This document shows positions 18,022 through 29,237 of a stretch of DNA of 34,391 nt, piece by piece. Position 1 is the first letter of the stretch. Each line of letters begins with the position of its first letter. The notes beneath the pieces are model-generated. The model did no database searches. It was not told where the DNA came from and worked only from the letters and a program-made list of their open reading frames with translations. The translations under genes were made by a program, and so were the position numbers. The stretch lies in the NCBI GenBank assembly GCA_012841045.1, contig DUVM01000010.1:1-34391 (forward strand), given 5' to 3'. The DNA is from Tissierellia bacterium (GTDB lineage: Bacteria; Bacillota; Clostridia; Peptostreptococcales; Acidaminobacteraceae).

Positions 18022-20457
18022 ATGAAGAAAGTATTGATCGTCGGCGGGGTCGCCGGTGGCGCCAGTGCCGCTGCACGTCTTCGAAGAGGAAGCGAAGAAC
18101 TCGAGATTATCCTCTTTGAAAAAGGCCCTTACATCTCTTATGCAAACTGTGGTCTGCCTTATTACTTAGGGGGCGTCATCGAAGAGCGCGATAGCCTGCT
18201 GCTTCTTACGCCAGAAAAAATGTCCGCACAATTTCGCATTGATGTGCGCACCCAAAACGAAGTCGTTCGGGTGGATACGCAAAACAAACAAGTGGAGGTG
18301 TTAAGCCACCAGACCGGAGAGCGCTACACGGAGTCCTATGACGCGCTGATCGTCTCACCCGGCTCAACCCCCCTGCGTCCACCGATTCCAGGGATGGAAT
18401 CCGAAGGGATCTTTACTCTTTGGACCGTGCCTGATGCTGACCAGATCTACGAGTACATTGAAGAGAAGAAACCGGAACACGCCGTCGTCGTCGGTGGAGG
18501 ATTCATCGGACTCGAGATGGTAGAAAACCTTGTCCACCGTGGCATCCGCGTTACATTGATTGAGAAACTCGATCAGGTCATGGCGCCCCTTGATAAAGAG
18601 ATGGCGGAATATCTCCATCATCACTTAAGAGAAAAAGGAGTCGATCTTCGTCTTTCCGCCGGTGTCGAGTCTTTTGAAAAGACAGAAAACGGAAACGCCG
18701 TTCTCCTCGAAGGGGGAGAAAAGGTAGAGGCCGAACTGATTCTCCTCTCCCTCGGAGTACGCCCGCAGACACAATTTCTCAAAGACAGCGGTTTAGCGAT
18801 CGGAGAGCGCGGTCATATACTGGTCGATGAATACTTCCGCACCAATGTCCCCGATGTCTACGGCATCGGAGATGCGGTGGCGGTAAAAGAACGCATCACG
18901 CAGACAGAAGCCTTCATTCCTCTAGCGGGTCCTGCCAACAAGATGGGTCGCCTTGTCGCAGACACGATTCTTGGCGATCCTGTAGCCTATCCAGGCACGC
19001 TTGGCACATCGATTGCACAGGTCTTTGACCTCTCCGCAGGCTCCACGGGTCTCGGGGAAAAGACACTCGCCAGACTCGGTAAAAAGCTTGGTGAAGATTT
19101 CTTATTTGTGCAGTTCACCGGACCTGCTCATGCTAGCTACTATCCCGGTGCAATGGACATGCAGGCGAAGATGTACTTTGAACCCACAGGAAAACTTCTC
19201 GGCTTCCAGGCGGTTGGAATGGACGGTGTAGACAAACGCGTCGATATCTTCGCGGCGCTTTTACAAAAAGGAGGCACCGTCCAAGATCTCAAAGAGCATG
19301 AACAAGCCTATGCACCTCCCTACGCCTCTGCAAAAGAAGTGCTCAATCAGATGGGCTTCATGGCGGACAACGTCTTAAAAGGAAAGTCCCGTCCGTTCTT
19401 TGCCCAGAATTTTGATCAGCTTCAGGCTCCTTTCTTCCTCGACGTGCGCGAAAAAGATGAACTACTTGTCGGCGAAATCCCCGGCAGTGTAAATATCCCA
19501 CTCGGAGAGCTAAGAGAACATCTGAATGAACTTCCAAAAAATCGAACCATTGTCGTCAACTGCGCCATCGGACAGCGCGGATATTACGCAGAACAGATCC
19601 TCAGAAACAATGGCTTCGAAGATGTTTACTACCTCGCCAGCGGCTATCGAGCCTATGCCAATCTCCATGAAGATCTCCCGGTTGCTGCCCCACTAGAAAA
19701 GCCCGAGGCCGACAAGGTCTATGACCTATCAGGCGCAACGCTCCTTCGCCTCGAAGGCATGCAGTGCCCCGGTCCGATCATCCGCATCTCCAAAGCACTT
19801 GAAGACGCGCAAGACGGAACTATCTTTGAAGTGCACGCAACCGACCCCGGCCTCCTTCGAGACCTGCCGGTGTGGTCAGAAAAGACCAACAACCGATATA
19901 TCTCAGGAGAGCTAAAAGACGGACGCATTGTCGCGTATATCCAAAAAGGAGAAAAAGAGCTGAGTACCGTTGCCACACCTTCCACAGGAAATGACAAGAC
20001 GATTGTACTTTTCTCAGGAGACCTTGATAAAGCCATCGCAGCGCTGATCATCGCCAATGGTGCCCTTTCCATGGGTAGAAAAGTGACTATTTTCTTTACC
20101 TTCTGGGGACTCAATGTCCTTCGTAAGACCGATAAGGTGAAGGTCAAGAAGGCGCCCATGCAAGAAATGTTCTCCAAGATGATGCCAAGAGGCACGACAA
20201 AAATGGGCCTCAGCCGCATGAACTTCCTCGGTCTTGGACCCAAAATGATCCGAAAGATCATGCAGGATAACTCCGTTGACTCCCTGGAAGAACTTCTCGT
20301 ACAAGCAAAAGAGAACGGTGTGCGCCTCATTGCCTGCAATATGAGTATGGATCTCATGGGGATCACCGAGTCAGAGCTGATAGAAGGCGTAGAGCTTGGC
20401 GGTGTCGCCACCTATCTGGGGGCTGCCGAAGACGCCGACACGAACCTCTTCATCTGA
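18022..20457 (+). CDS. Multidomain CoA-disulfide reductase-like FAD/NAD oxidoreductase fused to rhodanese, TusA and DsrE-like domains
   Basis: VLIVGGVAGGASAAARLRR, C43 in YANCGLPYY; rhodanese CAIGQR; TusA LEGMQCPGP; DsrE-like FSGDLDKAIAALIIANGAL ... LIACNMSMDLMGI. Confidence 0.93.
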   Translation: MKKVLIVGGVAGGASAAARLRRGSEELEIILFEKGPYISYANCGLPYYLGGVIEERDSLLLLTPEKMSAQFRIDVRTQNEVVRVDTQNKQVEVLSHQTGERYTESYDALIVSPGSTPLRPPIPGMESEGIFTLWTVPDADQIYEYIEEKKPEHAVVVGGGFIGLEMVENLVHRGIRVTLIEKLDQVMAPLDKEMAEYLHHHLREKGVDLRLSAGVESFEKTENGNAVLLEGGEKVEAELILLSLGVRPQTQFLKDSGLAIGERGHILVDEYFRTNVPDVYGIGDAVAVKERITQTEAFIPLAGPANKMGRLVADTILGDPVAYPGTLGTSIAQVFDLSAGSTGLGEKTLARLGKKLGEDFLFVQFTGPAHASYYPGAMDMQAKMYFEPTGKLLGFQAVGMDGVDKRVDIFAALLQKGGTVQDLKEHEQAYAPPYASAKEVLNQMGFMADNVLKGKSRPFFAQNFDQLQAPFFLDVREKDELLVGEIPGSVNIPLGELREHLNELPKNRTIVVNCAIGQRGYYAEQILRNNGFEDVYYLASGYRAYANLHEDLPVAAPLEKPEADKVYDLSGATLLRLEGMQCPGPIIRISKALEDAQDGTIFEVHATDPGLLRDLPVWSEKTNNRYISGELKDGRIVAYIQKGEKELSTVATPSTGNDKTIVLFSGDLDKAIAALIIANGALSMGRKVTIFFTFWGLNVLRKTDKVKVKKAPMQEMFSKMMPRGTTKMGLSRMNFLGLGPKMIRKIMQDNSVDSLEELLVQAKENGVRLIACNMSMDLMGITESELIEGVELGGVATYLGAAEDADTNLFI

Positions 20458-20461
20458 TGCC

Positions 20462-20704
20462 ATGGACAAGAAAAAAGACATCATCAATCGTCTAAAAACA
20501 CTTCAAGGCCACATCGGAGGCATTGAAGCCATGGTAGAAAAGGACGAAAGCTGTGATGCGATCATGCTCCAGCTTCGAGCCCTCAGCTCCTCTCTCAAGC
20601 GCCTCCAGTACAAAGTGCTCAGCACGTATGTCGATGAGTGCCTGGAGGAAGAAGACGGAAAGAAGAAGCTCCTCAAAATGCTTGACTATGTCGGTAGAGA
20701 CTAA
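20462..20704 (+). CDS. cstR: CsoR/FrmR (DUF156) family repressor, CstR-like persulfide sensor
   Basis: INRLKTLQGHIGGIEAMVEKDESCDAIMLQL; Cys at positions 31 and 60 of the predicted protein, no His at the CsoR copper-ligand position. Confidence 0.85.
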   Translation: MDKKKDIINRLKTLQGHIGGIEAMVEKDESCDAIMLQLRALSSSLKRLQYKVLSTYVDECLEEEDGKKKLLKMLDYVGRD

Positions 20705-20986: not shown

Positions 20987-22498
20987 ATGAGTATCTTTCG
21001 ACGAGCCTGGCTGAGCATCACTCGCAGAAAAAGTAAATCTCTCCTTCTTCTGAGCATCATCTTTGTGCTCGGAAGTATCATCGGCGGGGCGATGGCTGTG
21101 CGACTTGCCTCTGATAATGTCCACTCACGCATCAAACTCCGTCTAGGCACGGCGGTGACCATCGAATTTGATCAAGTGCAGATCAATAAGAGTCTAGAAG
21201 AAAATCCCGAAAGCCCTCTTACGTGGGAGTCGCCAAAACCTGAGATACTCGCCATCATCGGCAGCAGCCCTTACGTCAAAGCGTTTGAGTATTCGCTTCG
21301 CATGTCTATCGCCATCGAAGGAGCACAAAAATACATACCCGCGTATTTTCAAAATGAGGAAAAAGGAGAAAAACCGGGAGAAAATCGAGAGCCATTTTCA
21401 CTCATGGGTGTCTCGCATGCTACGATCATCGACTTTGAAGAGGGAAAAAGCAGACTTATTAGCGGCAGGCTTCCAAGTGAAGAAGAGATTACCTCCGGAG
21501 CATCGGTTGTGCTGATCAGTAAAGAGCTCTCAGAACACAATCAGCTGGACTTAGGAGATACGCTCCTTCTTCAAAGCTCCATCTACGACCTGTCAGACAT
21601 AGAAACCTTTGGCGTACTAGAGACGCTAGAGACAGCTGCAACGATCATCGGCATCTACGAGTCGACTCCTCAGGCAGCGATGGCAGATGGGGCAGGAAAT
21701 TCTTATAAGGATCCTTGGGGAGACGCTTTTTTAGATCAGCAGAACGCCAACACCCTGATCGCGCCCATCGACTTCGTCGGAAGCTTGTACCACCTTAAGG
21801 CGAGCGCCTACAATGAGTCGTATCGTGAGAGGTTCGGGTCGGATTATCCGGTAGAAGAGTATCAGGCCCTCTATATCCTCAAAGACCCCGATAAGTTAGA
21901 AACTTTTATCTCTGAGTCCGAGAAATACCTCCCCCCTTATAATCGCTTTGTCTCCTCGCTTGACAATTATCGGATTGTCTCCGGAGCCCTCGTACAGACG
22001 CAGAAGCTTGCAGAGTATACTCTGCTCATCGCCATAGGGGCGGCGGTGCTGATCATCACCTTGGTCATTCTCCTCTCCCTTCGAGATAGAAAGCAGGAAT
22101 GGGGCATTTACCTCTCTCTGGGTGAGAAAAGAAGTCGTCTGATACGCCAAATTCTCTTAGAGACACTTCTCATTGCCTTGATAGGAATCGCCCTTTCTAT
22201 CTTCAGTGGTCAGCTCAGTGCCAATGCCCTCTCACAGTCCATGGTCCGTGGGGAAATCGAAAACACAGCCAAGGAAATAGGATTAGAGTGGAAAGTCTAT
22301 GATAAGGGGATCTCCGCTCGCTACATGAACACCTCGCTGTCTCTAAAGGATGTGTATGAAGCATACGAGATTGAACTGAGCAGCAGATACTTGCTCGCTT
22401 TCTCGGGTGCCAGTGTCTTTGTCATCTCTCTCTCCACGCTCCTTCCTATGCTCTATCTTCTGCGGCTAAACCCGAAGAAAATCCTGATGGGACTGTAA
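20987..22498 (+). CDS. ABC transporter permease, FtsX/MacB-like (paralog 1)
   Basis: RAWLSITRRKSKSLLLLSIIFVLGSIIGGAM; LRDRKQEWGIYLSLGEKRSRLIRQIL; C-terminal RLNPKKILMGL. Confidence 0.88.
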   Translation: MSIFRRAWLSITRRKSKSLLLLSIIFVLGSIIGGAMAVRLASDNVHSRIKLRLGTAVTIEFDQVQINKSLEENPESPLTWESPKPEILAIIGSSPYVKAFEYSLRMSIAIEGAQKYIPAYFQNEEKGEKPGENREPFSLMGVSHATIIDFEEGKSRLISGRLPSEEEITSGASVVLISKELSEHNQLDLGDTLLLQSSIYDLSDIETFGVLETLETAATIIGIYESTPQAAMADGAGNSYKDPWGDAFLDQQNANTLIAPIDFVGSLYHLKASAYNESYRERFGSDYPVEEYQALYILKDPDKLETFISESEKYLPPYNRFVSSLDNYRIVSGALVQTQKLAEYTLLIAIGAAVLIITLVILLSLRDRKQEWGIYLSLGEKRSRLIRQILLETLLIALIGIALSIFSGQLSANALSQSMVRGEIENTAKEIGLEWKVYDKGISARYMNTSLSLKDVYEAYEIELSSRYLLAFSGASVFVISLSTLLPMLYLLRLNPKKILMGL

Positions 22499-22636
22499 TC
22501 ATCTCTGCTCATCAGCGGAAGAAAAAACGAACATATATACAGGCGATTTCTCCCTTTACAGGTAGGTCTTCCTACTGCTGAGAAGGCAGTCATTTTCTCT
22601 ATTTATTCATAGATTGGAGTATTAATTGCTACATTC

Positions 22637-22665
22637 TTGACATGAGGAAGCATGAACAGTACACT
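22637..22665 (+). promoter_or_regulatory. Sigma-A promoter TTGACA-17-TACACT upstream of permease 2
   Basis: Hexamers read directly; predicted 5' UTR about 180 nt. Confidence 0.65.
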
Positions 22666-22853
22666 CAAGGGTAAATGGAGCTCGTGTTTATAATGAATTC
22701 CTACATAACGATGACATGTTCTCTCGCAAAAATGCGGGACGAATCGGCTGATAGAATTGTCTATTGAATATGCGGGGTTTTCTGCGAAGATTGCCTAACC
22801 ACACAGATTTGCGCATCTATTTACAACTCACGGGTTGAAAGAAAGGAACGACT

Positions 22854-24398
22854 ATGAGTTTTCTCAAACGTGCCTGGCTGAGCATTACACGAAGAACAGG
22901 CAAATCTCTACTGCTTCTGCTGATCGTACTGATCCTAGGAAATGCGATCGCAGGGGCTATTTCCATTCAACAGGCCTCTGCCAATGTGGAGAAAAAGATT
23001 AAATCTGACATGGGCGCTGCGGCAACCATCCGCCTAGACTATGAAGAGTATGAAAAACTCTGGCAGCAGTATCAGGATAATCCTGAATCCATGCCGACGA
23101 TTAATCCCCCCACACCGGAGTTGATGCAAACGATCGGTAGTAGTCCATACGTGAAGTACTACGATTACTCCACCTCAAACGAGGCTGGTTCTGAGACCGT
23201 TGAGAAGTTTACCCCTCAGTTTCTTCAAGAGCAACAGGGAATGGGTGGAGGCGATTGGGACAAATACTATGCGTTTTCACTGCGCGGTGTTCAATACCAT
23301 AAGGTTCTCTCCATCGAAGAAGGTCGTCTCAATCTCGTAGGCGGTCGCGTCTTCACAGAAGAGGAAATTACGCAAGGGGCATCTGTCGCCATTATCTCAA
23401 AGAAATTGGCGGACGCGAATCAGATTAATTTGAACGATACGATCGTATTGTCCTCTTTTATCATGGATTACGAGAACGTAGATGCCAACACCGGCATGCC
23501 GGCTGTTGTTAATCAACTGGATTATCCTATCAAAGTGATTGGTTTTGTCGAACCCAACACCGCCCCCAAAACACCTAACCAGAGCGGCAATCGCGAAGGT
23601 GACAAATATACCGAAGCATTCATGGAGCAGCAGACCGCCAACACCATGTATCTGCCCAACGGCTTCATCATCAACTTTAATAAGCAACAATTGCTTGCAA
23701 GCATGGAAGCCAATCCCAAGGAGTATGAGGGAGTGGATGAGTCGGCGTTCAAGCAGACCTGGTACGAACCGGTGTACATCCTAAACGACCCGGGAGATCT
23801 CGAACGATTCAAAGAAGAGACCACTCCGCTGCTCCCCGAACTCTACATGGTGGCGACGACAGCAGATAATTATAAAGATATCGCAGCCCCAGTGGAGCAG
23901 ACAACAAAGATGGCCAACTACATTTTGATCGTTGCTGTGATTGCATCCATTTTGATTGTTACGCTGGTCGTCCTGCTCTTCCTGCGCGACCGTAAACATG
24001 AGCTGGGCGTATACCTCTCGCTTGGGGAGAAAAAAGGAAAAGTTGTCTCCCAAATTGTCGCAGAGGTCCTGATTATTGCCCTTCTCGGTATCACATTATC
24101 GGTCTTCACCGGAAATCTGGTCGCCTCGGGACTTTCTAGTTCTATGATCCAGGCGCAGATGGAAAAAGAAGCGCAGAACAATCCGTGGGAACGTGGTATG
24201 AGTATGAGCATGAACAATGTCGATGACTACATGTCCACCAATCTCACTATGCAAGACGTCGTCAGTGCCTATGAAATCCGCCTGACTCCGACGTATATTC
24301 TCGTGTTCTTCCTCGTGAGTCTGGGAACGATTGCCCTGTCTACTCTCGTACCGATGATCTACATCGTGCGGCTCAACCCAAGAAAGATTCTGATGTAA
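22854..24398 (+). CDS. ABC transporter permease, FtsX/MacB-like (paralog 2)
   Basis: RAWLSITRRTGKSLLLLLIVLILGNAIAGAI; LRDRKHELGVYLSLGEKKGKVVSQIV; RLNPRKILM; colinear with the 20987 protein. Confidence 0.9.
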   Translation: MSFLKRAWLSITRRTGKSLLLLLIVLILGNAIAGAISIQQASANVEKKIKSDMGAAATIRLDYEEYEKLWQQYQDNPESMPTINPPTPELMQTIGSSPYVKYYDYSTSNEAGSETVEKFTPQFLQEQQGMGGGDWDKYYAFSLRGVQYHKVLSIEEGRLNLVGGRVFTEEEITQGASVAIISKKLADANQINLNDTIVLSSFIMDYENVDANTGMPAVVNQLDYPIKVIGFVEPNTAPKTPNQSGNREGDKYTEAFMEQQTANTMYLPNGFIINFNKQQLLASMEANPKEYEGVDESAFKQTWYEPVYILNDPGDLERFKEETTPLLPELYMVATTADNYKDIAAPVEQTTKMANYILIVAVIASILIVTLVVLLFLRDRKHELGVYLSLGEKKGKVVSQIVAEVLIIALLGITLSVFTGNLVASGLSSSMIQAQMEKEAQNNPWERGMSMSMNNVDDYMSTNLTMQDVVSAYEIRLTPTYILVFFLVSLGTIALSTLVPMIYIVRLNPRKILM

Positions 24399-24407
24399 GG
24401 AGGAATC

Positions 24408-25082
24408 ATGTCTATTCTGGAGACGAAAAATCTTACGTACTATTATCAGGACGGGGAATCCCGCCGTTATATCCTCAACGATGTAGATGTGACCTTTGAA
24501 AAGGGCAAGTTCTATACCATTTGGGGACAGTCCGGATCCGGTAAGACCACCTTTCTTGCCATGATCTCTGCACTGGATGTACCACAGGAAGGGCAGATCC
24601 TCTTTAATGGCGCGGATATTAAGCAGATCGGATATGAAAAGTATCGTAGAAATCGCATAGGGATCATCTTCCAAAGCTACAATCTCATCCCCTACCTCAG
24701 CGCTGTGGAAAATGTCCTTGTGGCCATGTCGATCACGGAGAATCCTCTCCCTGAAAAAGAAAAAGAAGTTGCCTACAACCTGCTTGACTATATCGGCATC
24801 AGTCGATCAAAGGCGGACCGCAGTGTGACAAAGCTCTCCGGCGGCGAACAGCAGCGTGTGGCTATCGCCAGAGCGCTCTCCACCAATGTCGAGATCATCC
24901 TGGCCGACGAGCCGACAGGAAACCTTGACGAGGCGATGGAACAAGAAATCGTTGATATCTTTAAAAAGCTGGCCCATGAGCACGACAAATGCGTGGTCGT
25001 CGTCACGCACTCCAAAGAAATTGCCGAACAAAGTGATGTCATCCTTCACTTACACAAAGGAGCAATAAGACTCTATGAGTGA
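24408..25082 (+). CDS. ABC transporter ATP-binding protein
   Basis: Walker A GQSGSGKTT, signature LSGGEQQR, Walker B IILADEPTGNLD; AAGGAGG RBS. Confidence 0.95.
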   Translation: MSILETKNLTYYYQDGESRRYILNDVDVTFEKGKFYTIWGQSGSGKTTFLAMISALDVPQEGQILFNGADIKQIGYEKYRRNRIGIIFQSYNLIPYLSAVENVLVAMSITENPLPEKEKEVAYNLLDYIGISRSKADRSVTKLSGGEQQRVAIARALSTNVEIILADEPTGNLDEAMEQEIVDIFKKLAHEHDKCVVVVTHSKEIAEQSDVILHLHKGAIRLYE

Positions 25083-26679
25083 TTTTCTATCCAAATTCAC
25101 CCGCGATCAGTACGCGGATATGGTGAAAAAAGAAGAAAAAGAAAAAGCGGAAGGGACAGCGCCCGAAGAGGCACCCAGATCTCAGCGGCTTCCTGACAAT
25201 ATCGAAGATGAAAATGGTTTCGTGCCGGAGCCTCCCGTGCGATCTGCTCCCCAGGTTGCGAAGGAGCCCGTCCCTGAAACACCTGCACCAAAAGAGCCGG
25301 TCATCACCGAGCCTGAAGATCTTCCTGAAGAACCCGCAGTTGAAGAGAAGATGACGGTCCAAGATGTGGAATCCACCGGCCCTCCGCCGGTCGGGCCTCC
25401 TTCACCGCCAAAAGAGAGCAACAAGTCACGCCGTGTGCCTCCTCCGGCTCGTCATACGTATGCAGATGAAGAGACGGTCATCGATCCGTCATATAAGGAC
25501 AAGCAGCGCCGAAAGTATATCATTCTTGCCGCTGTCGGTGTCCTACTGCTTCTTCTACTTGCCTTTGGCATCTATCGATTCATGCATGTGAAGGTGCCGG
25601 ACTTCACCGGGAAAAACGTCTCAGAGGCGCGTGTCTGGGGAGCACAGAATCGTATAGACTTTGTACTCGATCAGGTACACAGCAAAGATTACGGCGCCAA
25701 CATCGTTATCAGCCAATCGGATACAGCAAATAAGATGGTGCGAAAAGGCACATCTGTCACCCTCGTGACCTCGCTGGGGCCCGATCCCGAGGAAGTGATC
25801 CCTCTACCTGATTTTGAAACATATTCAGCAGAACAGGCCAGAGAATGGGCAGGCGAGCAACAGGCCAATAACTTCTCGGTAGTCAATCAGTATTCGGACA
25901 CCGTGGAACAAGGTCGATTTATCTCCTTGAATATCACGGACAAGAACGTTACTCCCGAGTCCTATAAGAGAAAAGACACAGCGATTGCGTACTTCTCCCG
26001 CGGACCAGAAGTCTTTGAAAAGAACATTGTCGTACCTGATTTCACAGGAAAACAGCGGGCAGAGGTGGAGACGTGGGCGAACACGAATTCTATGAAGCTC
26101 ACGATCAAAGAGACGACCAGCAACGCAGTCGATGCAGGTTTTGTCATCTCACAGTCCGTAGTAAAGGGAGAAAAAGTTGCCAAGAATGATCCATTTGAGA
26201 TCACGGTCTCGCTGGGTCAGGCGATTATCGTACCGGACTTCCACGATTATCACATGGGAAATGCCGCAGAGGTAACGGGCGTCACGCCAGTAGTCCACAC
26301 CCGCTACAGCGAACTCATCCCGTACGGAAAGCTGATCAGCCAGTCGCTCATGCCGGGAACGAAACTCTCTGATAAAGACAACAAATCCATGGTCGTGGTC
26401 TACTCTCTCGGGCTTCCCTACTTGAAAGATCTGCGCCTAGAGACCAACGAAGGTGATCTTCAGAAGTACTTCTTTGATGAGTTCCAGAGTAAAGGTGCCA
26501 ATGTCACCTACACGGTGAGATATGTGGAATCACATTATCCAAAAGGAACCGTCATCTCCCAGAGTACCTATGAATCGCTTATTCCTCTGACCTTCAATGT
26601 TCAGCTGAGCATAAGCCTCGGGGACGGTACCTCGATCGATCCGGACGTCAAACCACCTCCTGGAAAAGAAAAAGACTGA
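25075..26679 (+). CDS. Single-pass membrane protein with a Pro/Glu-rich cytoplasmic N-terminus and about five PASTA-like extracellular repeats; no kinase domain
   Basis: TM KYIILAAVGVLLLLLLAFGIYRF; repeated VPDF(T)GK ... VISQS..KG..V ... SLG units; overlaps the ATPase gene by 8 nt. Confidence 0.85.
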   Translation: MSDFLSKFTRDQYADMVKKEEKEKAEGTAPEEAPRSQRLPDNIEDENGFVPEPPVRSAPQVAKEPVPETPAPKEPVITEPEDLPEEPAVEEKMTVQDVESTGPPPVGPPSPPKESNKSRRVPPPARHTYADEETVIDPSYKDKQRRKYIILAAVGVLLLLLLAFGIYRFMHVKVPDFTGKNVSEARVWGAQNRIDFVLDQVHSKDYGANIVISQSDTANKMVRKGTSVTLVTSLGPDPEEVIPLPDFETYSAEQAREWAGEQQANNFSVVNQYSDTVEQGRFISLNITDKNVTPESYKRKDTAIAYFSRGPEVFEKNIVVPDFTGKQRAEVETWANTNSMKLTIKETTSNAVDAGFVISQSVVKGEKVAKNDPFEITVSLGQAIIVPDFHDYHMGNAAEVTGVTPVVHTRYSELIPYGKLISQSLMPGTKLSDKDNKSMVVVYSLGLPYLKDLRLETNEGDLQKYFFDEFQSKGANVTYTVRYVESHYPKGTVISQSTYESLIPLTFNVQLSISLGDGTSIDPDVKPPPGKEKD

Positions 26680-26688
26680 TCTCATGCG

Positions 26689-26727
26689 ACAACGCCTCTC
26701 CAATAGGAAAGGCGTTGTTTTCATTTT
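26689..26727 (+). terminator. Terminator after the PASTA gene
   Basis: ACAACGCCT ... AGGCGTTGT followed by a T-rich tract. Confidence 0.8.
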
Positions 26728-26740
26728 TATTCTATTTCTC

Positions 26741-27550
26741 CTAGGCTTTGACTCGCCTACTCAGGTATACCAGAGCGAACACCACGCCATTTAAAAGGAC
26801 GATTGTCGCCCCGGTAGGCGTGTTCAAGACAAAAGAGGACATAATCCCACCCAGCACACAGACAAGCGAGATCACCACGCTCAGAAACAGCGTCATGTGA
26901 AAGCTTTTTTTCAGTTGAAGAGCTGTGACAGCGGGAAAGATGATCATGCTTGAGATGAGAAGTGTTCCGACAACCCGAATACCTAGGAGAATCGTGACAC
27001 TTGTCAGAAGGGCGAGCAGCTGATTGAGTAGACGCGTATTAAGTCCAAGCGTGCGCGCATAGTCTTCATCATAAGTCAGCACAATCAGCTCTGTATGGAA
27101 AAACACGATGGCGCTGACGACACCGACTCCCAAAATCACGCTGATCCACACCTCTAGTGGGCGGATGACGAGGATGGAACCGAACAGATAGCTGTTGAGA
27201 TCCACGCCAAATCCTCCCCTAAGGGAAGACAAGAAAATACCTAGTGCGACAGAGAAGCTGGATACGAGGCCAATGGCAGCGTCGGCGTGAAGCTCATTTT
27301 TTTCGCTCAGCATCATAATGAGAAAAGAAGCGCCGATCACCAGCGGAAGGGAAAACAAAAGAGGTGTTGCCCCCAGTGCAAGCGCAATCGCCACAGAGGC
27401 AAAGCTCACATGCGCCAGTCCGTCGCCGATCATGGAGTAGTGTTTGAGGACAAGAAAGACACCCAGAAGAGCGCCGCTGATCCCTATCAAGGTTCCTACC
27501 ACCAACGCGCGAGTCATGAACTCATATTGAAAAAGATTCAGCAGATTCAT
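26741..27550 (-). CDS. znuB: Metal (zinc/manganese) ABC transporter permease, ZnuB/AdcB family
   Basis: ALVVGTLIGISGALLGVFLVLKHYSMIGDGLAHVSF; multiple TM segments. Confidence 0.9.
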   Translation of the reverse strand: MNLLNLFQYEFMTRALVVGTLIGISGALLGVFLVLKHYSMIGDGLAHVSFASVAIALALGATPLLFSLPLVIGASFLIMMLSEKNELHADAAIGLVSSFSVALGIFLSSLRGGFGVDLNSYLFGSILVIRPLEVWISVILGVGVVSAIVFFHTELIVLTYDEDYARTLGLNTRLLNQLLALLTSVTILLGIRVVGTLLISSMIIFPAVTALQLKKSFHMTLFLSVVISLVCVLGGIMSSFVLNTPTGATIVLLNGVVFALVYLSRRVKA

Positions 27551-28248
27551 TCATGCCTCCAGCAGTGTTGATGTTGCGTTGCTTGGCCAAAGTACTTCCC
27601 CATTCCTCCACTCTCACAGAACTCATCGTACTCACCAAAGAAGATCAGCTGCTGGTCGAGGTAGAGAATTTTATCCGTATAGGTTCCAACCGTCGCGACA
27701 TCGTGCGTGACGAGCAGGATGGTCACACCGTCTTCTTTTAGATGGTCCATCAGCGAATAGAACCCACTTCGTGTTTTCGGGTCGAGAGCACTTGTCGGCT
27801 CATCGAGAATCAGAAGCTTTGGATCGCTCACAAGGGCCCGAGCAAGATGAACCCGCTGGAGCTGTCCGCCGCTTAAAGAGCCAATTCGTCGATCGGCCAG
27901 ATCGCTGATGGCAAGATCAGCTAGCACCTCTGCTACCGCTTCTCGACTTCTAAAACGCTCCTTTCTCTTGACCCCCATCTCCACAATCTCCGATACAGTC
28001 GCAGGAAACAGCGGGTCTTTTCCCTTTAGCTGCTGCGGCAGATAGCCGATACTCTCGGTGCGGACATGAAGTTCCCCTTTTTGAGGAAACTCCAGTCCCA
28101 AGATCGAGCGCACCAGACTCGTTTTTCCGGAGCCATTGGGCCCTACGATCCCGATATGCTCTCCCTCTTCAATCGCAAACGATACATTGTGGAGAGCTTC
28201 CACCGAGCCATAGGATAGACTGATATTTTTGGCTTCAATCAGTGTCAT
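27547..28248 (-). CDS. znuC: Metal ABC transporter ATP-binding protein, ZnuC-like
   Basis: GPNGSGKTSLVRSILGL, LSGGQLQRVHLARAL, LLILDEPTSALD. Confidence 0.92.
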   Translation of the reverse strand: MTLIEAKNISLSYGSVEALHNVSFAIEEGEHIGIVGPNGSGKTSLVRSILGLEFPQKGELHVRTESIGYLPQQLKGKDPLFPATVSEIVEMGVKRKERFRSREAVAEVLADLAISDLADRRIGSLSGGQLQRVHLARALVSDPKLLILDEPTSALDPKTRSGFYSLMDHLKEDGVTILLVTHDVATVGTYTDKILYLDQQLIFFGEYDEFCESGGMGKYFGQATQHQHCWRHE

Positions 28249-29237
28249 TGCAAACCTTTTCTAAGTTTATCCAAATTGTCCTTCATAATCTGCATATACG
28301 TGAGTCCCTGCTCTGCCTCTTCCGGACTGAGATTATGGGCTCCGTGTAAGAGCACAAGTTGTGCCCCCGTTTCATCTGCAATGGCTTGTGCCACGCGCGG
28401 ATCTGTCAGTTCCTCGAAGTAGAGGGTGGTGCTGTGCGTCTCTTTCAATGCATCGATGAGCTTGGCCATCTCGACAGGTGTCGGCTCGGCATTTGTAGAA
28501 TAGCCTGCATACGGTGAGCGATGCGTCAGCCCGTAGCGCTCTGCCAGATACCCAAAGGCGAAATGCCCTCCGTACAAAAGTGTCTTGTTCGGAAGCTCAG
28601 AGATAACCGAGATATACTCTTCATCCAACGCCAAGAGTTCCTGATCATAGGCCTCCCAGCGAGAGCGGAACAGCTCTTCGTGGGCAGGATCCGCTTCGAC
28701 CAGCGCATCAAGTACATTTTTAGCCATGATCCGAGCGTTTTCTAGACTCGTCCAGATATGCGGATCGACACCGCCGTGATCATGTGCGTGTTCTTCATGA
28801 TCGCCATGCTCTTCATCGTGATCGTCATGGCCTTCTTCATGATCGTCATGCTCTTCTTCGTGATGGTCATGATCATCGTGGTCTTCACGCGTTTTAAGGA
28901 GTGTCACGCCTTCACTGACATCCTTGACGAGCGCCGGTTTTGCAGAGGAGAGAATGCCCTCCACCCACGGCTCCATCACATCACCTGTATACAAGAATAC
29001 ATCTGCCTCGGAGATAGAGGCCACATCCTGAGGTTTCGGTTCGAACTGATGCGGCTCCGTGCCCGGAGGGAGCAAGAGTCGAAGGTCAATTTCCTCTCCC
29101 CCGATGACTCTGGCAAAGTCATACTGTGGAAAGAGCGTAGTGATCACAAGTGTCTTGTCTGACGCGGGGCTCTGAGTCCCAGGTGAGCATCCGACAAGCA
29201 GTACCAGTACCAAAAGTCCTACCATTATTTTTTTCAA
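28245..29237 (-). CDS. znuA: Zinc ABC transporter substrate-binding lipoprotein, ZnuA/AdcA-like, with His/Asp/Glu-rich loop
   Basis: Lipobox LLVGC; LLPPGTEPHQFEPKPQDV, His-rich loop then GGVDPHIWTS, LLYGGHFAFGYLAERYGL. Confidence 0.93.
   Translation of the reverse strand: MKKIMVGLLVLVLLVGCSPGTQSPASDKTLVITTLFPQYDFARVIGGEEIDLRLLLPPGTEPHQFEPKPQDVASISEADVFLYTGDVMEPWVEGILSSAKPALVKDVSEGVTLLKTREDHDDHDHHEEEHDDHEEGHDDHDEEHGDHEEHAHDHGGVDPHIWTSLENARIMAKNVLDALVEADPAHEELFRSRWEAYDQELLALDEEYISVISELPNKTLLYGGHFAFGYLAERYGLTHRSPYAGYSTNAEPTPVEMAKLIDALKETHSTTLYFEELTDPRVAQAIADETGAQLVLLHGAHNLSPEEAEQGLTYMQIMKDNLDKLRKGLQ
28776..28884. repeat. Imperfect tandem repeat encoding the His/Asp/Glu-rich loop of ZnuA
   Basis: Repeated TCTTCATGATCGYCATG-type units; translation HDDHDHHEEEHDDHEEGHDDHDEEHGDHEEHAHDHG. 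Confidence 0.75.

Follow-up and report, generated by a model that had tools for sequence, protein, structure and literature searches.

In the 34,391-nt window analysed here, meaning the whole stretch of contig DUVM01000010.1 from a Tissierellia bacterium to which all positions below refer, the genes for an FtsX/MacB-type permease (perm2), an ATP-binding cassette (ABC) ATPase and a kinase-less membrane protein with PASTA repeats form a cassette, and one permease, one ATPase and one PASTA protein is the unit that is conserved among genomes. We propose, at a probability of roughly 65%, that the three products make up one membrane complex in which the PASTA protein would act as the dedicated partner of a Type VII ABC core. 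A second permease gene (perm1) precedes the cassette; all four genes lie on the + strand and, by reading of the open reading frames, together span 20987-26679.

Conservation of the permease-ATPase-PASTA cassette

The perm2 gene (22854..24398, 514 amino acids (aa)) is followed after a spacing of 9 nt by the ATPase gene (24408..25082, 224 aa), and the PASTA gene (25075..26679, 534 aa) starts ahead of the ATPase stop, so that the two genes share exactly 8 nt (ATGAGTGA, 25075..25082). Direct reading of the sequence places an AAAGGAG ribosome-binding-like site for the PASTA gene within the ATPase gene (25056..25062), and the operon ends at an intrinsic-terminator-like hairpin with a U-rich tract (26690..26725; the fold of 26680-26730 has -19.9 kcal/mol and a z-score of -6.3). 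The coordinates bear out the sequence-only reading of this DNA, which had described permease 2, ATPase and PASTA gene as a tight operon with an 8-nt overlap. The gap between perm1 and perm2 measures 355 nt and holds a weak terminator-like hairpin (22574..22590), which is suggestive only as the consensus scan gave a regional count not above shuffles, and the region's top-scoring promoter match, a TTGACA-17-TACACT site 5' of perm2-ATPase-PASTA (22637..22665, 10/12 matches, likewise suggestive only). Because of this gap with its hairpin and promoter match, the tight operon is taken to consist of perm2, ATPase and PASTA gene, with perm1 as a mere neighbour.

Among named genomes the permease, ATPase and PASTA genes stand in this order on one strand in 54 of 55 loci, the 55th being cut by a contig end, so that the cassette, for which a search across Clostridia had been suggested, is found beyond the strain and beyond Clostridia. 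Its hosts are scattered over several classes of Bacillota, among them uncultured Tissierellia (metagenome-assembled genomes), Bacillaceae, Carnobacteriaceae and Erysipelotrichaceae, and include Oceanobacillus, Sutcliffiella, Evansella, Amphibacillus, several Streptococcus including Streptococcus orisratti, Enterococcus casseliflavus, Granulicatella and Isobaculum. The distribution is broad but patchy: the cassette occurs in 10 of 41 genomes of the window's family (five genera, the window's own genome included), in 6/399 genomes of an evenly drawn sample of the phylum (own included) and in 10/400 of an evenly drawn sample of the class of Oceanobacillus (centre genome included), which is about 2% of evenly drawn genomes. 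Permease-profile searches gave nearly all close permeases with ATPase and PASTA genes alongside, while matches below about 260 bits lack PASTA except for a divergent four-gene locus (L181).

The 8-nt overlap that couples ATPase and PASTA gene is kept in 65/65 cassettes, 62 of them reading ATGAGTGA and three ATGTCTGA; the latter preserves Ser2 of the PASTA protein while the last ATPase residue turns from E to V. The PASTA protein begins with the conserved peptide MSDFLSKF (25075..25098), which is predicted to be cytoplasmic. Since the scan of named genomes used two patterns, one of which was MSDFLSKF itself, the conservation of the N-terminus is partly circular there, and the alignment of the whole PASTA family was too divergent for a collection scan. 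Twelve cassettes found independently of the motif, via the permease profile or the PASTA family, read MSDFL[SN][KNSG]F, and the conservation of this peptide is therefore not a search artefact. Neighbour clustering of the 54 loci revealed that the genes flanking the cassette vary in nearly every genome, and the three cassette genes therefore behave as a unit whose recurrence is far beyond chance.

Two hosts stand out by the arrangement of their loci. Enterococcus casseliflavus has two cassettes on a single contig, separated by about 14 kb (L182:7000-10456, L183:3296-7076), one of them followed by a two-component system (TCS), and on a megaplasmid of Enterococcus raffinosus (NZ_CP081847.1, L202:8444-9974) the PASTA gene is annotated in two pieces near an IS110 transposase, which is probably a decaying copy. 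A phage origin was rejected, as only the permease matched phrog_6434 (function not assigned) beside weak partial matches in four Listeria phage records; so was a defence system, for which PADLOC returned generic ATPase matches and PASTA matches to PD-T4-6 only.

Predicted architecture of the three proteins

Judged by its modelled fold, the perm2-ATPase pair belongs to the MacB type of Type VII ABC machines and would, like this class, act by mechanotransmission without passing a substrate through the membrane. The AlphaFold2 model of perm2 (pLDDT, the predicted local distance difference test, 80) places one transmembrane (TM) helix before a large extracellular domain and three more after it. 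Its best Foldseek matches are MacB, LolE/LolC and S. pneumoniae MacB (5xu1), the top query-normalised TM-score among the matches listed (50 PDB) belongs to YtrF (9o9x, 0.52/0.59), and FtsX is matched much more weakly (E 2.6e-3 vs 1.3e-12 for MacB). Profile searches with the perm2 sequence returned MacB, the extracellular domain of YknZ and FtsX, and both perm1 and perm2 match FtsX and MacB_PCD above the Pfam cut-off. Pfam, AlphaFold2, Foldseek and 54 named syntenic homologues agree in assigning perm2 as the core permease, in which the marks of the Type VII (MacB/FtsX) class, namely an FtsX-type C-terminal domain and a MacB-like extracellular core in a 4-TM fold, were found together with a cognate ABC ATPase that has the catalytic motifs. 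The ATPase (ABC_tran, 118 bits in Pfam) contains Walker A, signature, Walker B and H-loop residues, and the columns GxSGSGKT, LSGGEQQ, LxDEPTG and H201 are invariant across nine homologues. The earlier description of the permeases as FtsX/MacB-type holds at the level of the Pfam family matches, while the likeness to FtsEX that it drew is only one option, the folds being nearer to MacB, LolC/E and YtrF than to FtsX. Residues typical of cassette permeases amount to only 12 scattered positions with no clear interface.

Assignment to a described family was considered in each case and rejected. For FtsEX the ATPase scores 178.6 bits against a TIGR02673 cut-off of 264.9, and perm1 reaches 17.2 bits against the NF038346 cut-off of 250 with no such match listed for perm2. 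For LolCDE the ATPase scores 184.6 bits where the LolD equivalog cut-off is 307.8. BceAB-type transporters have a ten-TM permease and an adjacent BceRS-type TCS, while perm2 consists of just one 4-TM unit (514 aa) and the flanking genes in the window encode no TCS. Tripartite MacAB/YknXYZ systems have a MacA-type HlyD/MFP adaptor in the operon, and the partner here has PASTA repeats only.

The PASTA protein matches only PASTA in Pfam (106 bits) and shows no kinase domain; it does not belong to the PASTA kinases (Stk1/PrkC), as it lacks a Pkinase match and scores 112.7 bits on NF033483 against a cut-off of 450. Its AlphaFold2 model, built with 41 homologues, has a short helix near the N-terminus (residues 10-25), a proline-rich linker modelled at low confidence and a predicted TM segment at about residues 149-168 (25519..25578), a hydrophobic stretch within a long modelled helix (140-170) that runs on towards the ectodomain. 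The single TM segment and the likeness to PASTA kinases suggest a cytoplasmic N-terminus and extracellular repeats. Pfam itself counts three PASTA repeats, and the model displays five consecutive units, which end at residue 516 with a pLDDT mostly >90. Delimited by DSSP on the model, unit 1 (25588-25782, 41.7 bits) and unit 3 (26026-26220, 44.3 bits) score above the Pfam cut-off, and unit 2 (25792-26010, 16.4 bits), unit 4 (26224-26412, 21.5 bits) and unit 5 (26416-26622, 13.5 bits) below it. The per-unit Pfam scores and the five modelled units support the five predicted PASTA units, in line with the five-repeat, kinase-less membrane protein that the sequence-only reading had described. Foldseek and sequence searches gave the PASTA domains of PrkC/PknB as best matches of the ectodomain, so that Pfam, AlphaFold2 and Foldseek concur on PASTA repeats with a PASTA fold. 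Three of the units each contain an invariant Trp (W188, W258 and W334). The window's genome also encodes a separate PASTA kinase on another contig and a PASTA transpeptidase, as well as a kinase-less 250-aa protein with two PASTA stretches that is unlinked to the cassette (G000:C59, L201:4246-4998).

The second permease, relatives and neighbouring genes

The perm1 gene (20987..22498) encodes a paralogous 4-TM FtsX/MacB-type permease of 503 aa without an ATPase of its own (Pfam FtsX 41.3 bits, MacB_PCD 29.3 bits). It was found only in the window's genome (G000) and in G011 of the same genus; a third member of the genus, G010, has the same upstream neighbours and no perm1 at that place, and G011 also carries a third, decayed fragment. 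The permease tree places perm1 and the corresponding G011 gene with the perm2 of the genus itself and with an orphan permease found elsewhere in G000, which indicates that perm1 is a genus-specific duplicate and an optional extra permease. It is intact in two species and retains 8 of the 12 cassette-typical permease residues. An independent permease-ATPase-PASTA-permease arrangement exists at the divergent locus L181:4800-9491, on long branches in a distant genome. Comparative synteny and the permease tree rule out the heteromeric permease as a defining trait, because perm1 is genus-specific and lies behind its own intergenic gap: extra permeases recur, yet they do not define the system. The permease pair described from the sequence is thus not supported as a conserved feature, and the upstream paralogue is present and lacks an own ATPase as had been stated, though it stands outside the tight operon. 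Orphan permeases of the same family without PASTA or cassette ATPase were observed at G000:C176:20354-21889 (L077:8346-9923), G009:C21 (L078:8883-10334) and G790:C1 (L192:6621-8129). These genomes contain a complete cassette as well, and one ATPase may serve several permeases.

In the ATPase tree, a single branch (Shimodaira-Hasegawa-like approximate likelihood ratio test (SH-aLRT) 88) separates all 33 PASTA-linked members from 16 PASTA-less relatives. The PASTA-linked group includes four divergent cassettes of the same family with multi-PASTA proteins of 727-734 aa. A branch of the permease tree (SH-aLRT 91) also sets the PASTA-less members apart, and the main cassettes (99) and the divergent four (100) form two groups of their own. 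As both trees are unrooted, these topologies agree with a PASTA link that arose once but do not prove it. All four divergent cassettes adjoin an OmpR-type response regulator and a histidine kinase, a histidine kinase and response regulator are directly adjacent in 9 of the 16 PASTA-less relatives, and the cassettes of Oceanobacillus and S. ovuberis are preceded by genes for a short histidine kinase, a response regulator, an ATPase and a large FtsX permease, a module with a Bce-like layout. It is plausible from these relationships that an ancestral permease-ATPase module with its own TCS took up the PASTA partner, and that the linked regulator was subsequently lost in most cases. Several PASTA-less relatives (L193-L197, L080, L082, L083) presumably resemble in arrangement YclHI-YclJK of Bacillus subtilis, a permease-ATPase pair beside a TCS that is not known to have a PASTA partner. 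YclHI is listed as a Type VII system of unknown function (PMC11466899).

Elsewhere in the window, the region 18022-20704 encodes an 811-aa protein in which pyridine-nucleotide disulfide reductase, rhodanese, TusA and DsrE domains are fused, together with a metal-sensitive (CsoR-type) repressor whose open reading frame overlaps the 3' end of the fusion gene. Other genomes of the genus have this pair upstream of their cassette, too. A convergent operon at 26741-29237 encodes ZnuA, an ATPase and an ABC-3 permease for metal uptake; its binding protein has a loop rich in His and Asp.

Proposed ABC-PASTA complex, alternatives and known systems

In the complex that we propose, the core would most likely consist of two permeases and two ATPases, and the PASTA protein would be the dedicated, translationally coupled partner of this Type VII (MacB-fold, mechanotransmission) machine. 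Its N-terminal peptide MSDFLSxF and TM helix may dock on the ABC core, its five-unit rod may reach into the wall and bind peptidoglycan or precursors, and the cell wall would regulate the ATP-driven strokes of the permease or be the place where they are delivered. This proposal draws on the findings that Type VII systems are defined by, and take their function from, partner proteins (PMC12646458), that the S. pneumoniae MacA adaptor needs its cytoplasmic region and its TM helix to stimulate the MacB ATPase (PMC5985334), that YknX is reported to bind peptidoglycan (PMC5985334) and that the PASTA region of PrkC binds peptidoglycan fragments (PMC5786024). The task of such a complex is the weakest step of the proposal. 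We tentatively favour membrane- or precursor-directed envelope stress, by extraction or target protection, because PASTA-less relatives and divergent cassettes are TCS-linked and some cassettes lie beside Bce-like modules; control of a hydrolase is rated lower, as no hydrolase gene is a recurrent neighbour of the cassette. That the multi-PASTA rod reads the state of the peptidoglycan and directly gates the ABC motor, or that the motor pulls on the wall via the rod, in either case with ATP hydrolysis coupled to the cell wall and no kinase or hydrolase subunit, appears rather doubtful. Several observations weigh against the proposal: a clustered response regulator lies within 5 kb in only 9/54 loci, no TCS, hydrolase or other functional gene constantly adjoins the cassette in the main clade, which leaves its task weakly constrained, and the orphan permeases (L077, L078, L192) show that the permease can be uncoupled from ATPase and PASTA.

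Among the other readings, the ABC-PASTA complex could signal wall damage inward, with PASTA as the ligand-binding part and a TCS or a PASTA kinase as the output, much as BceAB reports to BceS. The kinase and regulator pairs that flank the four divergent cassettes and a cassette of E. casseliflavus, and the PASTA kinase in the window's genome, speak for such a sensor, which we consider unlikely as most cassettes of the main clade are without a nearby TCS and the PASTA kinase is encoded on another contig. FtsEX switches on peptidoglycan cleavage via EnvC, PcsB or CwlO, and the core could likewise act to this end through the PASTA rod or through a wall hydrolase that the rod recruits, the more so as it belongs to the FtsX family, PASTA domains are wall-binding and FtsEX of B. 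subtilis also needs the type II membrane partners SweC and SweD (PMC6705773). An FtsEX-like regulator is nonetheless decidedly unlikely: no hydrolase gene family recurs by the cassette in the 54 clustered loci, the perm2 fold is nearer to MacB, LolE and YtrF than to FtsX, the PASTA-less relatives are TCS-linked, and an occurrence in only about 2% of sampled genomes is not that of a core division system.

The functional unit could instead be a heteromeric perm1/perm2 complex; LolCDE is heteromeric and offers a parallel, perm1 has stayed intact and keeps most cassette-typical residues, and L181 arrived at two permeases independently. Given that perm1 is missing from G010 and from the other examined loci except L181, and that perm2 is preceded by a separate intergenic region with a promoter-like site, we regard this as improbable. 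That the PASTA protein only shares a transcript with an ordinary MacB-type exporter and acts on its own in the wall is a reading for which the small unlinked PASTA protein of the same genome speaks; it is still more improbable, since partner, order and the exact 8-nt overlap persist while the flanks change in nearly every genome.

No description of a permease-ATPase-PASTA cassette was found in the literature searched (PASTA with MacB, FtsX-like permease, BceAB or Type VII), which excludes most subscription papers, and within this scope the system appears undescribed, as the sequence-only reading had supposed. The Type VII family papers that were checked do not mention a PASTA partner; the partners named are MacA/YknX adaptors, EnvC/PcsB/CwlO, LolA, TesA, BceS and VraH (PMC5985334, PMC12646458, PMC6705773, PMC6355983). 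If the proposal is true, the PASTA protein would constitute a new partner class for Type VII ABC machines, PASTA rods would gain a role outside kinases and penicillin-binding proteins, and the culturable carriers Oceanobacillus, Streptococcus orisratti and Enterococcus casseliflavus would allow separating the wall contribution of PASTA from kinase signalling.

Compared with known systems, the cassette shares with FtsEX and its partners EnvC/PcsB/CwlO an FtsX-family permease and a separate ATPase, while its permease of about 514 aa has a large MacB-like extracellular domain, no hydrolase recurs alongside and its occurrence is patchy. YtrEF is alike in that YtrF gives the top query-normalised TM-score for the perm2 model among the matches listed, and it differs in working with YtrBCD rather than PASTA and in only 11% identity to perm2; Ytr overexpression thickens the wall, and the ytr operon is induced by wall antibiotics (PMC8060467). 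The PASTA kinases PrkC, PknB and StkP share the TM helix and the PASTA rod, being the top matches for the ectodomain, whereas the PASTA protein here has no kinase, and in its cytoplasmic part a short conserved peptide is followed by a linker that varies and is modelled at low confidence. Similar in layout are MacAB, YknXYZ and S. pneumoniae MacAB, which likewise combine a 4-TM MacB-fold permease with a separate ATPase in Gram-positives and with a partner that has a cytoplasmic N-terminus, a TM helix and an extracellular part. The PASTA protein would take the position held by the MacA/YknX adaptors in these systems, though with PASTA repeats and no MacA/HlyD-type domain in Pfam, and from a gene that lies 3' of the ATPase gene and overlaps it.

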